DNA from: Flavobacterium sp. LC2016-12
GTDB lineage: Bacteria; Bacteroidota; Bacteroidia; Flavobacteriales; Flavobacteriaceae
Length of the DNA: 64,000 nt
Reading direction: 5' to 3'
Assembly (NCBI RefSeq): GCF_015351595.1
Contig: NZ_JADKPT010000001.1
Location: 124,001-188,000, forward strand
Shown: in pieces, positions 9,430-54,055 of the stretch
How the letters are laid out: each line of letters starts with the position of its first letter
How positions within the stretch are numbered: the first letter of the stretch is position 1
Notes under the pieces: model-generated
Told to the model about the DNA's origin: nothing
Seen by the model: the letters and a program-made list of their open reading frames with translations, nothing else
The model's database searches: none
Made by a program: the position numbers and the translations under genes

Positions 9430-9487
9430 TTTGCCACGAATTCACGAATTTTTAAATCAATAATAAAATTCGTGAATTTGTGGCAAA
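9430..9487. repeat. Palindromic intergenic repeat, GCCACGAATTCACGAATT family, copy 2
   Basis: Arms 9430-9452 and 9465-9487 (23 nt) pair with one mismatch (an A opposite C or G-T wobble, depending on strand) around a 12-nt loop. The left arm is the same sequence as at 2838-2856. It sits between the MORN-type gene and the DUF4956 gene. Confidence 0.8.
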
Positions 9488-30143: not shown

Positions 30144-30917
30144 CTAATTTCGTTTTAAAACTTTGTATTGTTCGTAACAGCCGCTAATAGCATCCAGAAT
30201 TTGCAAATCGTTTGCAGATTGAATAAAGGCGTCAGAATAGTTGCAACGCTGTAAAATATCGGGAATTTCGTCTTTGCTTATTCCTAAAAGAACAGCAAGT
30301 GTTTCACGATCGTATTTGGATTCTAAAAGATTTCGAATTGTGTCGTCTTTTTTCATATCCTTCAACTTTTTAAGCTCTTTTCCATTTTTTCCAAAGAAAT
30401 TGTAGAGCATATCAGCTGGGTTAAAAATAGATCCCAATACTTTTCCAAAGGCATTTGGAGCATATTCACCAGCTTCATAGCCTTGTGTTAGACCAGAAAT
30501 ACTATATCGATAGTTTTCTTTTGTTGGAATTAATTTAGAATCAATTTCAAGATAACCAGTTAAGTTAAAAGGAGCAATAACAACTTCTTCAAGTGCAATT
30601 GCTTTTTCTGTAAGTTGAATCCTTGTTACTTTATTTTTTATCCAGTCATTTGTTACTCTGATTCGCAGAGACTGAAATCCTAAAAGTGAGAAATGCAGTG
30701 TATCATTTGGCTGCACATCAATTTCAAAATATCCTTTAGCATCAGACTGGGCACCACGTACTTTGTTTGTGTTAATGATATTTACATTAGGAATAGGCTG
30801 TTTACTATTATCGTTGTAGATGTAACCAGAAACTCTCTGAGGAATGGTGGTTTCAGTTTCTTGTGCGAAACTGATGGTCGATACTAGTATAAAAAAGAAA
30901 ACTGCGAAATATTTCAT
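30144..30917 (-). CDS. Exported protein with CarboxypepD_reg-like domain
   Basis: 257 residues. A signal peptide (MKYFAVFFFILVSTISFAQ) precedes a beta-sandwich domain (about 28-110) with VSGYIYNDNSKQPIPNVNI and GAQSDAKGYFEIDV, the carboxypeptidase-regulatory-like fold found at the start of TonB-dependent receptors. Here it is not followed by a plug or barrel. The C-terminal 140 residues are a helical domain that I do not recognise. Likely periplasmic. Notably, the start codon sits within a long near-perfect hairpin (30901-30969) formed by the leader and the first codons, which may control translation. Confidence 0.85.
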   Translation of the reverse strand: MKYFAVFFFILVSTISFAQETETTIPQRVSGYIYNDNSKQPIPNVNIINTNKVRGAQSDAKGYFEIDVQPNDTLHFSLLGFQSLRIRVTNDWIKNKVTRIQLTEKAIALEEVVIAPFNLTGYLEIDSKLIPTKENYRYSISGLTQGYEAGEYAPNAFGKVLGSIFNPADMLYNFFGKNGKELKKLKDMKKDDTIRNLLESKYDRETLAVLLGISKDEIPDILQRCNYSDAFIQSANDLQILDAISGCYEQYKVLKRN

Positions 30918-30969
30918 ATCCTGATTTAAAGCACTAAAAGTAGTAAATCGGGATTAAATATTTCGCAGT
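30901..30969 (-). promoter_or_regulatory. Start-codon-sequestering hairpin in the leader of the CarboxypepD-reg-like gene
   Basis: In mRNA sense (minus strand) the leader ACTGCGAAATATTT (30969-30956) is perfectly complementary to codons 2-6 (30914-30901, 14 bp). Immediately inside, 30954-30944 and 30928-30918 (11 nt) pair with a single C-A mismatch, leaving a 15-nt loop. The ATG (30917-30915) falls in the 3x1 internal loop between the two stems. Together 24 of 25 positions pair. This would hide the start codon unless melted, unfolded by a ligand or protein, or disrupted by a translating ribosome. Confidence 0.7.
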
Positions 30970-31100
30970 CTTCGAATATAATTATAAGAAAATTAACAAA
31001 GCAAGTAGTGTTGCTTTTGGTATTTACATAAAAAGGTAAAATATAATTAAATTAATTTGTTATTGAATTACTAAACTCATACACGGAGGGTTCTTGGTGT

Positions 31101-31144
31101 AAAAAAAAATCCCAAATTCCAATATGTTTGGAATTTGGGATTTT
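31101..31144. terminator. Terminator of the DEAD-box helicase gene
   Basis: AAAATCCCAAATTCCA (31106-31121), 7-nt loop, TGGAATTTGGGATTTT (31129-31144): a 16-bp perfect stem, with an A run at 31101-31109 that forms the T tract for minus-strand transcription. Confidence 0.9.
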
Positions 31145-31163: not shown

Positions 31164-33089
31164 TTAATCTCTTCTTGGTCTTCTTGGTCTTGGCGAATCA
31201 CCAAAGCTTTCAGAACGTCTTGGAGCTCTGTCTGAACTTCCTTCGTTTCTTGGAGCCGAGCTTCTAAAGCCACCTTCTCTTTTAGGAGCAGATGAGTTTC
31301 TGTCGCTTCTGAAACCACCTTCTCTAGGAGCAGAGTTTCTATCGCTTCTAAAACCTCCGCCACCAGAACCTTCGCGTCTTGGTCCGAAACTTCCACCACC
31401 AGAACCTTCACGTCTTGGGCCTCCAGAGCTTCTTCCGCCGCCAGAACGTCCGTTATGGTCACGTCTTCCGCCACCATCATTTTTAGAAATTTCAACATTA
31501 ATACGACGTCCTTCTAATTGTACGTTGTTTAATACTTCCATTACTTTTTCAGTGTGCTCAGGATCAGTGTTAAAGAAAGAGAAACCTTCTTTTACATCTA
31601 CTTTGAAAACGTCATCACGACCTAAGTCTAATGTTTCTTTCAAGTAATCTTTTAGCGTCATCCAATCGAAATTGTCTCTTGAACCGATGTTTACAAAATA
31701 ACGAACTGCTCCATTATTATTGAATTCTCTTGGCTCAGAATCGCTTCTTTCACGTCTTTCTCCTGCTTGAGATGAAATGTCTCTGTTCTTTTTATAGTAA
31801 GCAATAAAACGGTTAAATTCTACTGAAACCATTTTCTTAATCAATTCTTCTTTAGATAAACCTTCAAGAACATTATTGATTGCTGGTAAATAGTTGTCAA
31901 TTTCGTGATCAACTTCAGTATCTTTAATTTTGTTTGCTAAGTGCAACAATTGAATTTCGCAGATTTCGATTCCAGATGGAATAGATTTTTCTTCGAATTT
32001 TTGTTTGATAATTCTTTCGATAGAAGAAATTTTACGTAACTCACTTTTTGTAACAATTACAATAGAAGTTCCTAATTTTCCAGCTCTACCAGTACGTCCA
32101 GAACGGTGATTATATGTTTCAATTTCGTCAGGAAGTTGGTAATTTACTACGTGAGTAATATTATCAACGTCAATACCACGTGCAGCAACGTCAGTAGCAA
32201 CAAGCATCTGAATTTGTCTTCCACGGAAAGATTTCATTACCCCATCACGTTGCGCCTGAGATAAATCTCCGTGCAATGCAGCAGCGCTGTATCCATCTTC
32301 GATTAATTTTTCAGCTACGGCCTGTGTATCTCTTTTAGTACGACAGAAAACCACAGAGAAAATATCTGGATTTGCATCGGCTAAACGTTTTAAAGCTTCG
32401 TAACGGTCACGTGCATTTACTAAGTAAAACTCGTGAGAAACTGTTGCAGAACCTGAGTTTTTAGCTCCAACAGTAATTTCAACCGGTTCGCTCATGAATT
32501 GTTTTGCAATTCTGGCAACCTCTTGTGGCATAGTTGCAGAGAACAACCATGTACTTTTTTGATCTGGAGTATCTGATAAAATAGATACGATGTCTTCATA
32601 GAATCCCATGTTCAACATCTCATCAGCTTCATCCAAAATACAGTAATCTATATTTTTAATGTTAACCAAACCTCTGTTAATCATGTCTTGCATTCTTCCC
32701 GGAGTAGCTACAATAATTTGTGCTCCTCTTTTAATGTCTCTAGCTTGCTCTGTAATACTAGCCCCGCCGTAAACTGCTACCACATTAATACCTTTCTCGT
32801 ATTTTGAGTAGTTTTTAAGTTCGTTGGTAATCTGTAAACAAAGTTCTCGTGTTGGCGATAAAACTAATGCTTGTGTATTCCTGTTGTCAGCATCAATTTT
32901 TTGAATTAGCGGAAAACCGAAAGCTGCCGTTTTCCCTGTCCCTGTCTGAGCCAACGCAACCATATCTGTGTCTTTTTCCAATAATAGGGGAATCGCTTTC
33001 TCCTGTACTTCTGACGGATTCTCAAATCCTAGATCTAAAATCGCCTTCAGTAACGATTCATTCAATCCTAATTGTTCAAATTTATTCAT
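31164..33089 (-). CDS. DEAD-box RNA helicase with DbpA-type RNA-binding domain and RG-rich tail
   Basis: 641 residues from Met at 33089; the longer start at 33113 lies in the -7 box of the promoter and is rejected. Motifs present: AQTGTGKT (47-54), PTREL, DEAD (153-156), SAT (184-186), and ARGID and HRSGRTGR in the second RecA domain. A DbpA RNA-binding domain (about 465-540, RYFVNIGSRDNFDW) follows, then a tail of about 95 residues rich in Gly, Arg and Ser with repeats such as GPRREGSGGG and GGFRSDRNS. It likely remodels RNA or ribosome intermediates, for example during cold. The tail probably binds RNA and may phase-separate. Confidence 0.95.
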   Translation of the reverse strand: MNKFEQLGLNESLLKAILDLGFENPSEVQEKAIPLLLEKDTDMVALAQTGTGKTAAFGFPLIQKIDADNRNTQALVLSPTRELCLQITNELKNYSKYEKGINVVAVYGGASITEQARDIKRGAQIIVATPGRMQDMINRGLVNIKNIDYCILDEADEMLNMGFYEDIVSILSDTPDQKSTWLFSATMPQEVARIAKQFMSEPVEITVGAKNSGSATVSHEFYLVNARDRYEALKRLADANPDIFSVVFCRTKRDTQAVAEKLIEDGYSAAALHGDLSQAQRDGVMKSFRGRQIQMLVATDVAARGIDVDNITHVVNYQLPDEIETYNHRSGRTGRAGKLGTSIVIVTKSELRKISSIERIIKQKFEEKSIPSGIEICEIQLLHLANKIKDTEVDHEIDNYLPAINNVLEGLSKEELIKKMVSVEFNRFIAYYKKNRDISSQAGERRERSDSEPREFNNNGAVRYFVNIGSRDNFDWMTLKDYLKETLDLGRDDVFKVDVKEGFSFFNTDPEHTEKVMEVLNNVQLEGRRINVEISKNDGGGRRDHNGRSGGGRSSGGPRREGSGGGSFGPRREGSGGGGFRSDRNSAPREGGFRSDRNSSAPKREGGFRSSAPRNEGSSDRAPRRSESFGDSPRPRRPRRD

Positions 33090-33110
33090 ATGTGTATTTA
33101 AAATAGGGTG

Positions 33111-33118
33111 CAAAATTA
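33111..33118 (-). promoter_or_regulatory. Helicase gene -7 box (minus-strand TAATTTTG)
   Basis: CAAAATTA on the plus strand is an exact minus-strand TAnnTTTG, 22 bp before the chosen start at 33089. It overlaps the alternative start at 33113, arguing against it. No clear -33 TTG is seen. Confidence 0.6.
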
Positions 33119-53970: not shown

Positions 53971-53990
53971 TAATTTAAATCACAAAATAT

Positions 53991-54036
53991 AAATTCCAAA
54001 TTCCAATAGCGATTATCCTATTGGAATTTGGAATTT
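53991..54036. terminator. Terminator between the small membrane protein and uvrA
   Basis: AAATTCCAAATTCCAATAG (53991-54009), 8-nt loop, CTATTGGAATTTGGAATTT (54018-54036): 19-bp perfect stem with a T-rich flank on each strand. It has the same AATTCCAA core as the terminator at 31106. Confidence 0.9.
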
Positions 54037-54055
54037 TTAATTTGGATTTTTTTAC

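Follow-up and report, generated by a model that had tools for sequence, protein, structure and literature searches.

A candidate terminator of an RNA helicase gene overlaps the coding start of the next gene in Flavobacterium

The window analysed here, a 64,000-nucleotide stretch of the genome of Flavobacterium sp. LC2016-12, carries a gene for a DEAD-box RNA helicase, followed on the same strand by a gene for a protein with a signal-peptide-like N-terminus. Between the two, and extending into the second, lies a long hairpin that spans the start codon of the downstream gene. The features of the locus, in the direction of reading, are these:

31164–33113, minus strand: DEAD-box RNA helicase gene with a DbpA RNA-binding domain (upstream gene)
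31106–31144, minus strand: conventional, separate intrinsic terminator behind the helicase gene, from the terminator scan
30977–30998, minus strand: conserved block TGTTAATTTTCTTATAATTATA, possibly a promoter or regulator site
30956–30973, minus strand: left arm of the outer stem, P1
30944–30954, minus strand: left arm of the inner stem, P2
30935–30942, minus strand: TACTTTTA, a TAnnTTTR box in the loop, putative −7 promoter element of the downstream gene
30918–30928, minus strand: right arm of P2
30915–30917, minus strand: start codon ATG, in the internal loop between P1 and P2
30897–30914, minus strand: right arm of P1, which is also signal-peptide codons 2–7 (KYFAVF)
30891–30896, minus strand: U-tract TTTTTT, abutting the stem, which is also codons 8–9 (TTT TTT)
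30144–30917, minus strand: downstream gene, 257 aa, with a CarbopepD_reg_2 domain and a signal-peptide-like N-terminus

The outer stem comprises 18 base pairs (30973–30956 with 30914–30897), of which one is G-U and five are G-C; its core is a perfect 14-bp stem (30969–30956 with 30914–30901) that four outer pairs extend to the full length. The P1 arms are 41 nt apart, and the gap between them holds P2 (30954–30944 with 30928–30918), in which 10 of 11 positions are paired around a single C-A mismatch and a 15-nt loop. A previous, sequence-only reading of this DNA had reported the 14-bp stem, the mismatched 11-nt stem and the 15-nt loop, with the ATG inside the internal loop between the stems. 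The sequence and coordinates agree with this description, and the ATG is confirmed at 30917–30915. The same reading judged the pairing to be far above chance, as folding bears out: the RNA from 30975 to 30890 (minus strand) folds at −33.2 kcal/mol compared with −10.3 kcal/mol (s.d. 2.4) for shuffled sequences (z = −9.4), and none of 200 shuffles is as low. The hairpin is therefore real as described but was understated, in that its arm leads directly into a TTTTTT tract that had gone unmentioned.

Neither a DNA search nor a covariance model finds a second place for the hairpin in the 5.0-Mb genome, and a repeat or mobile element was rejected for this reason. A scan for start-spanning stems, covering 464 kb of the same genome and 379 ORFs (90 aa or longer, with up to three candidate ATGs per ORF), gives two stems of comparable score and none in the shuffled control; the window hairpin is the only one of the two with a U-tract (seven T in eight positions vs three in eight). 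The other, at L317 (15322–15414), is an imperfect 26-nt inverted repeat that crosses a putative start codon and has no U-tract. An Rfam covariance-model search at the gathering score returns no match in the window, which disposes of a known RNA family, and a simple terminator scan with allowed loops of 3–8 nt did not flag the hairpin. A supposed tRNA-Lys anticodon-loop mimic in the loop was dropped, having no stem. Elsewhere in the window, near-identical palindromes of the form TTYGCCACGAATTCACGAATT at 2836–2888 and 9430–9487 look like a dispersed repeat.

A transcript reading through from the helicase gene would include the entire hairpin. In most loci of the genus, an Arg-rich helicase C-terminus (RPRRPRRD-stop or similar, identified by pattern) lies ahead of the leader. 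The separate terminator at 31106–31144 and a site at 53983–54044 are related inverted repeats containing CCAAATTCC/GGAATTTGG; the first of these is seen again downstream of the helicase gene in relatives of clade 1, as might follow from the spread of a terminator cassette at that site. The GTTAAT of the TGTTAATTTTCTTATAATTATA block is present in all 110 leaders of the first genus set, whether the hairpin is intact or not. Reuse of this block elsewhere in the genome was rejected, since the single match found, with three mismatches, is equalled by one in the reversed control.

The downstream protein shows a sub-threshold match to BamP (61.5 bits, where the cut-off is 230) and, judged from sequence, may be one of its homologues. 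BamP is presented, in passages of PMC12611786, as one subunit of the machinery for outer-membrane assembly in Flavobacterium. Matches to the downstream protein are found at E ≤ 1e-20 in 243 of 249 sampled genomes of the genus and at E ≤ 1e-8 in 296 of 299 genomes of the family, some of which may be paralogs. Among the matches listed, the closest named relatives are F. saccharophilum, F. aquidurense DSM 18293 and Flavobacterium sp. Root420, with 97% protein identity; inspection by eye shows the hairpin in each of them, along with the terminator or the tail end of it within the 200 nt inspected.

Conservation was assessed on 196 leaders from the genus, made up of a first set of 110 (30 loci and 80 stretches) and 86 usable leaders from 90 further loci; the four test loci dropped either had no start that could be found (L151, L192) or ran into a contig end (L193, L214). 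Covariation was examined on the 97 distinct leaders among the first 110, an alignment in which intact and decayed stems are mixed. RNAalifold gave zero consensus pairs on these 97 rows, and changes were for that reason counted on the named structure: both sides vary at 20 of its 29 pairs, compared with 10–14 when the structure is slid along the alignment, and at 13 of the 18 P1 pairs, compared with 5–9 when slid. There are loci, such as L107, L110, L212, L219 and L220, in which the arms have changed wholesale yet still pair. Compensatory changes in the arms at orthologous loci, which the sequence-only reading had proposed to look for, are thus found, and the conserved pairing on which it had staked its case is present across Flavobacterium. 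The same evidence rules out its suggestion of a trace of local inverted duplication.

The strand on which the pairing matters is not settled by the kinds of mispair. Within columns 17–30, 96.7% of stem cells are paired in loci without a separate terminator compared with 89.2% in those with one, and A-C outnumbers G-U by 34 to 10 with the terminator and by 13 to 9 without it. Columns 15–16 alone favour G-U. At 64 of 110 loci the sense strand gives the lower folding energy, and the test of G-U against A-C is not decisive. A covariance-model search of the family yields, at E ≤ 0.1, matches in five of the 239 genomes. Two belong to the genus; of the remaining three, L119 is an ortholog in another genus, and L118 and L120 are not leaders of the downstream gene.

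Distinct differences are seen between loci that have a separate terminator behind the helicase gene and those that do not. Among the first 110 loci, stems tended to be weak when a separate terminator lies between the helicase stop codon and the leader, and strong when only ∼8 nt, too few to accommodate a terminator, separate that stop codon from the conserved block; the median stem energy is −14.8 kcal/mol with a terminator (n = 50) compared with −19.9 kcal/mol without (n = 60; p = 2e-5). The resulting prediction was fixed before the 86 new loci were added, with the terminator detector and stem measure unchanged. In these the medians are −4.8 kcal/mol with a terminator (n = 16) and −18.4 kcal/mol without (n = 70; p = 2e-8). 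Of the 70 new loci scored as terminator-free, 17 did not reach the predicted −15: 14 have a left arm situated 3′ of the fixed window, with a full minimum free energy of −20 to −28, and the other three (L164, L194 and L223) show a terminator by eye. After these results had been seen, the stem window was widened to −72..−30 and then to −72..−24, the latter alongside a detector that accepts terminator loops of up to 17 nt.

Over the whole genus set, a separate terminator is detected at 69 of 196 loci, leaving 127 without. A strong stem (P1 ΔG ≤ −14) is present in 126 of these 127, as against 33 of the 69 with a terminator (Fisher, 5e-19); the weak stems are correspondingly 36 of 69 and one of 127, and the one exception, L194, is among those with a terminator by eye. 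Correction for the tree leaves the association in place: the stem is weaker by 7.4 kcal/mol where a separate terminator is present (p = 3e-8, fitted lambda 0.65, n = 114), or by 4.9 kcal/mol when lambda is set to 1 (p = 1.5e-4). The terminator label switches 11 times across the 114-protein tree, and starred branches require at least six of these switches. When a conservative sign test is restricted to supported branches, it has six pairs to work with, typically four for, none against and two tied (p = 0.125).

Thirty of the 33 strong stems that stand beside a terminator belong to the window's own clade (L003–L051, grouped by protein identity). Within it, strong and weak stems number 10 and 0 without a terminator and 30 and 9 with one (p = 0.17; p = 0.003 for the energies). 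These strong stems are consistent with recent acquisition of the terminator and slow decay of the hairpin. The hairpin in the window's species is itself probably redundant, since a conventional terminator is also present. Beyond the genus, we collected 21 loci, 20 from the top of the family matches, mostly by score, together with L119. Four have a separate terminator, none has a hairpin at ΔG ≤ −14, and 17 have neither; stopping read-through is therefore not needed everywhere, so that these bacteria either tolerate it or stop transcription in another way.

T-rich sequence follows the stem: the first 8 nt behind it contain a mean of 6.3 T over the 126 loci that have a strong stem and no terminator, with the stem end sought only as far as +23, a limit that 29 of the 126 reach. 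Over the fixed positions +18..+27, the number of T out of 10 is 8.27 for strong stems without a terminator, 7.94 for strong stems with one, 7.47 for weak stems with one, and 5.57 in the 21 loci from other genera. A run of six T is found at 98 of 126 strong-stem loci compared with 22 of 36 weak-stem loci (p = 0.053), so that the contrast in the U-tract is modest. The signal peptide shows a parallel difference: its majority sequence in the genus is M[K/R]YFVVFFF, whereas the 21 orthologs from other genera are leucine-rich (MKKLLLLLL-like), and signal peptides of weak-stem loci contain more leucine. Pairing, covariation, the inverse relation to a separate terminator and the U-tract are all established by the computation.

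The loop of the hairpin contains a second conserved signal. A TAnnTTTR box is present in the loop region at 191 of 196 genus loci, compared with 21.6 expected from letter shuffling. All 36 loci with a terminator and a weak stem keep it, and the box is for this reason independent of the hairpin. Its last base is A, rather than the consensus G, in 176 of the 191. In other genera the raw count of loci with the box between −45 and −4 is 18 of 21, in forms that include TACATTTG, TATATTTA, TAACTTTA and TATTTTTA. The sequence in the loop fits the TAnnTTTG −7 box that has been mapped in F. psychrophilum (PMC9723704). A TTG −33 element at the usual distance is not seen by eye in the window. We infer that the downstream mRNA begins ∼10–15 nt before the ATG, in which case its own mRNA would lack the left arm. 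The −7-like box thus favours a transcription start inside the hairpin as likely, and it was on such a start that the sequence-only reading had been prepared to give way. In eight loci from other genera (L123, L124, L128, L130, L132, L134, L136 and L137), GAAACTTT ... GTCTA can be seen by eye upstream of the ortholog, a pattern that we take to resemble an ECF-sigma promoter.

Predicted openness of the RNA also depends on where it begins. At 25 °C, the unpaired probability of −12..+14 over the 126 loci is 0.25 in read-through RNA compared with 0.58 in RNA starting at −13. For the window hairpin the same region stays closed from 4 °C (0.17) to 45 °C (0.20), which speaks against the RNA thermometer offered by the earlier reading. 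The ATG itself is predicted to be largely unpaired, at 0.67 at 4 °C and 0.90 at 45 °C, and in window RNA starting at −13 it is less open (0.30–0.40) than in the full hairpin, while −12..+14 as a whole is more open. In only 14 of the 126 strong-stem loci are all three bases of the ATG paired, which does not support the idea that the hairpin is placed to block initiation by hiding the start codon.

We conclude, with a probability of about 0.6, that the hairpin and U-tract constitute the intrinsic terminator of the helicase gene, with the promoter of the downstream gene in its loop and with a 3′ arm and U-tract that are also coding. RNA arriving from the helicase gene would fold and terminate there, its ribosome site being closed as well, whereas the downstream gene's own mRNA, transcribed from a promoter (−7 box TACTTTTA) nested in the loop, would be free of the left arm and translated. 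The 3′ arm and U-tract would meanwhile double as codons 2–9 of the signal peptide. Termination itself we infer, and it is the U-tract that suggests termination rather than a block on translation alone. That the hairpin acts on read-through RNA is the most likely explanation of its becoming dispensable once a terminator sits upstream of the downstream gene's promoter: a structure that controlled its own mRNA should not become dispensable in this way, whereas one acting on the helicase RNA should. Its most likely role is accordingly to keep the helicase and downstream genes apart, rather than to serve as a switch.

The alternatives differ chiefly in which RNA, if any, the hairpin is supposed to act on. 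It might work in read-through RNA solely by preventing translation of the downstream gene, with transcription carrying on. Such an insulator would be made equally dispensable by a separate terminator, and the lower openness of −12..+14 in read-through RNA would suit it; however, the start codon is rarely paired, and the presence of a U-tract behind the stem, with most T at strong-stem loci lacking a terminator, leaves this account unlikely. A further proposal, that read-through is regulated, being relieved for example by cold or by the helicase, and so couples the downstream gene to the helicase, draws on the identity of the upstream gene as a DEAD-box RNA helicase and on the fact that loci lacking a separate terminator are the majority. 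It is quite improbable, because the weakening of the stem in lineages with a plain terminator implies that any such coupling can be dispensed with.

An account that makes the hairpin a switch within the downstream gene's own transcript, in which a thermometer or a ligand- or protein-binding leader would hide the start and the promoter would lie at the upstream GTTAATTTTCTTATAATTATA block, is in keeping with the high conservation of that block and of the loop, and with the position of the ATG within the hairpin. We nevertheless hold it to be very improbable: the weakening of the stem where an independent terminator precedes it is unexpected for such a switch, weak-stem loci retain the loop box, and neither thermal opening nor an Rfam match is found. 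As for an operator or cruciform acting at the level of DNA, or a neutral inverted duplication, the stem core does not favour G-U over A-C, either with or without a terminator, as would suit both. The arm sequences, however, vary freely while the pairing holds, whereas covariation would be absent from a neutral repeat and an operator's sequence would be preserved, and there is accordingly scarcely any likelihood that either is correct. The preferred interpretation remains a terminator for the helicase gene.

At its fullest, this interpretation places three superposed signals, all kept by the genus, in one stretch of DNA: a helicase terminator, a promoter nested in its loop, and a signal peptide shaped by the pairing and the U-tract. 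We put it forward tentatively, at just short of even odds. If true, it would mean that a terminator can be embedded in the first codons of the following gene and put that gene's protein under constraint across the genus; such hairpins would otherwise be read as start-codon switches by annotators and riboswitch hunters. The several independent gains of an ordinary terminator would also amount to a natural experiment in the Bacteroidota, bearing on how strong termination is and what read-through costs.

No description of this arrangement was found in the titles and abstract openings of the literature searched, although Table S7 of PMC9723704 may list the region; the phrase ‘start codon’ does not occur in the consulted portion of PMC12207403, which has passages on terminators. 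PMC9723704 reports 64 structured 5′ regions in F. psychrophilum, with the pheA, hisG, ftsY, acsA, alaS and rimP leaders among the named examples. The window hairpin is similar to these in being a structure at a gene start that is conserved in the genus and lacks an Rfam family, but differs in being tied to the upstream gene, and the downstream gene is not among the examples named in the sections consulted. RNA thermometers and riboswitches likewise have structure covering the start region, but here there is no predicted thermal opening and no Rfam match, and the stem is weaker where a terminator lies upstream.

Compared with intrinsic terminators, the hairpin has the same order of stem and immediate U-tract behind a gene, and it is weaker in relatives that carry a conventional terminator at the same place. 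It stands where the helicase gene would otherwise have no terminator, as expected of one, within the genus (126 of 127 loci) but not beyond it, with neither element present at 17 of the 21 loci sampled from other genera. In contrast to the textbook form, its 3′ arm and U-tract serve as the opening codons of the gene that follows, and 41 nt separate the outer arms, with an inner stem and a probable promoter between them. It also departs from the usual G-C-rich stem with a short loop of 3–8 nt, the stem being A-T-rich with five G-C pairs in 18; we therefore regard it as a variant, and its termination as predicted, rather than as a textbook terminator. Leaders of IS10/IS200-type transposases are subject to fold-back inhibition, in which an inverted repeat surrounds the translation start and the native promoter lies inside it. 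The resemblance here is to a start-spanning inverted repeat that would form solely in RNA whose transcription began outside it, with a putative promoter inside the repeat; the differences are that the present gene is a widely conserved chromosomal one, that a U-tract follows, and that the stem is shared and coevolves with signal-peptide coding. On these comparisons it seems probable that the hairpin works like an intrinsic terminator and, as far as translation is concerned, like the fold-back control of transposases.
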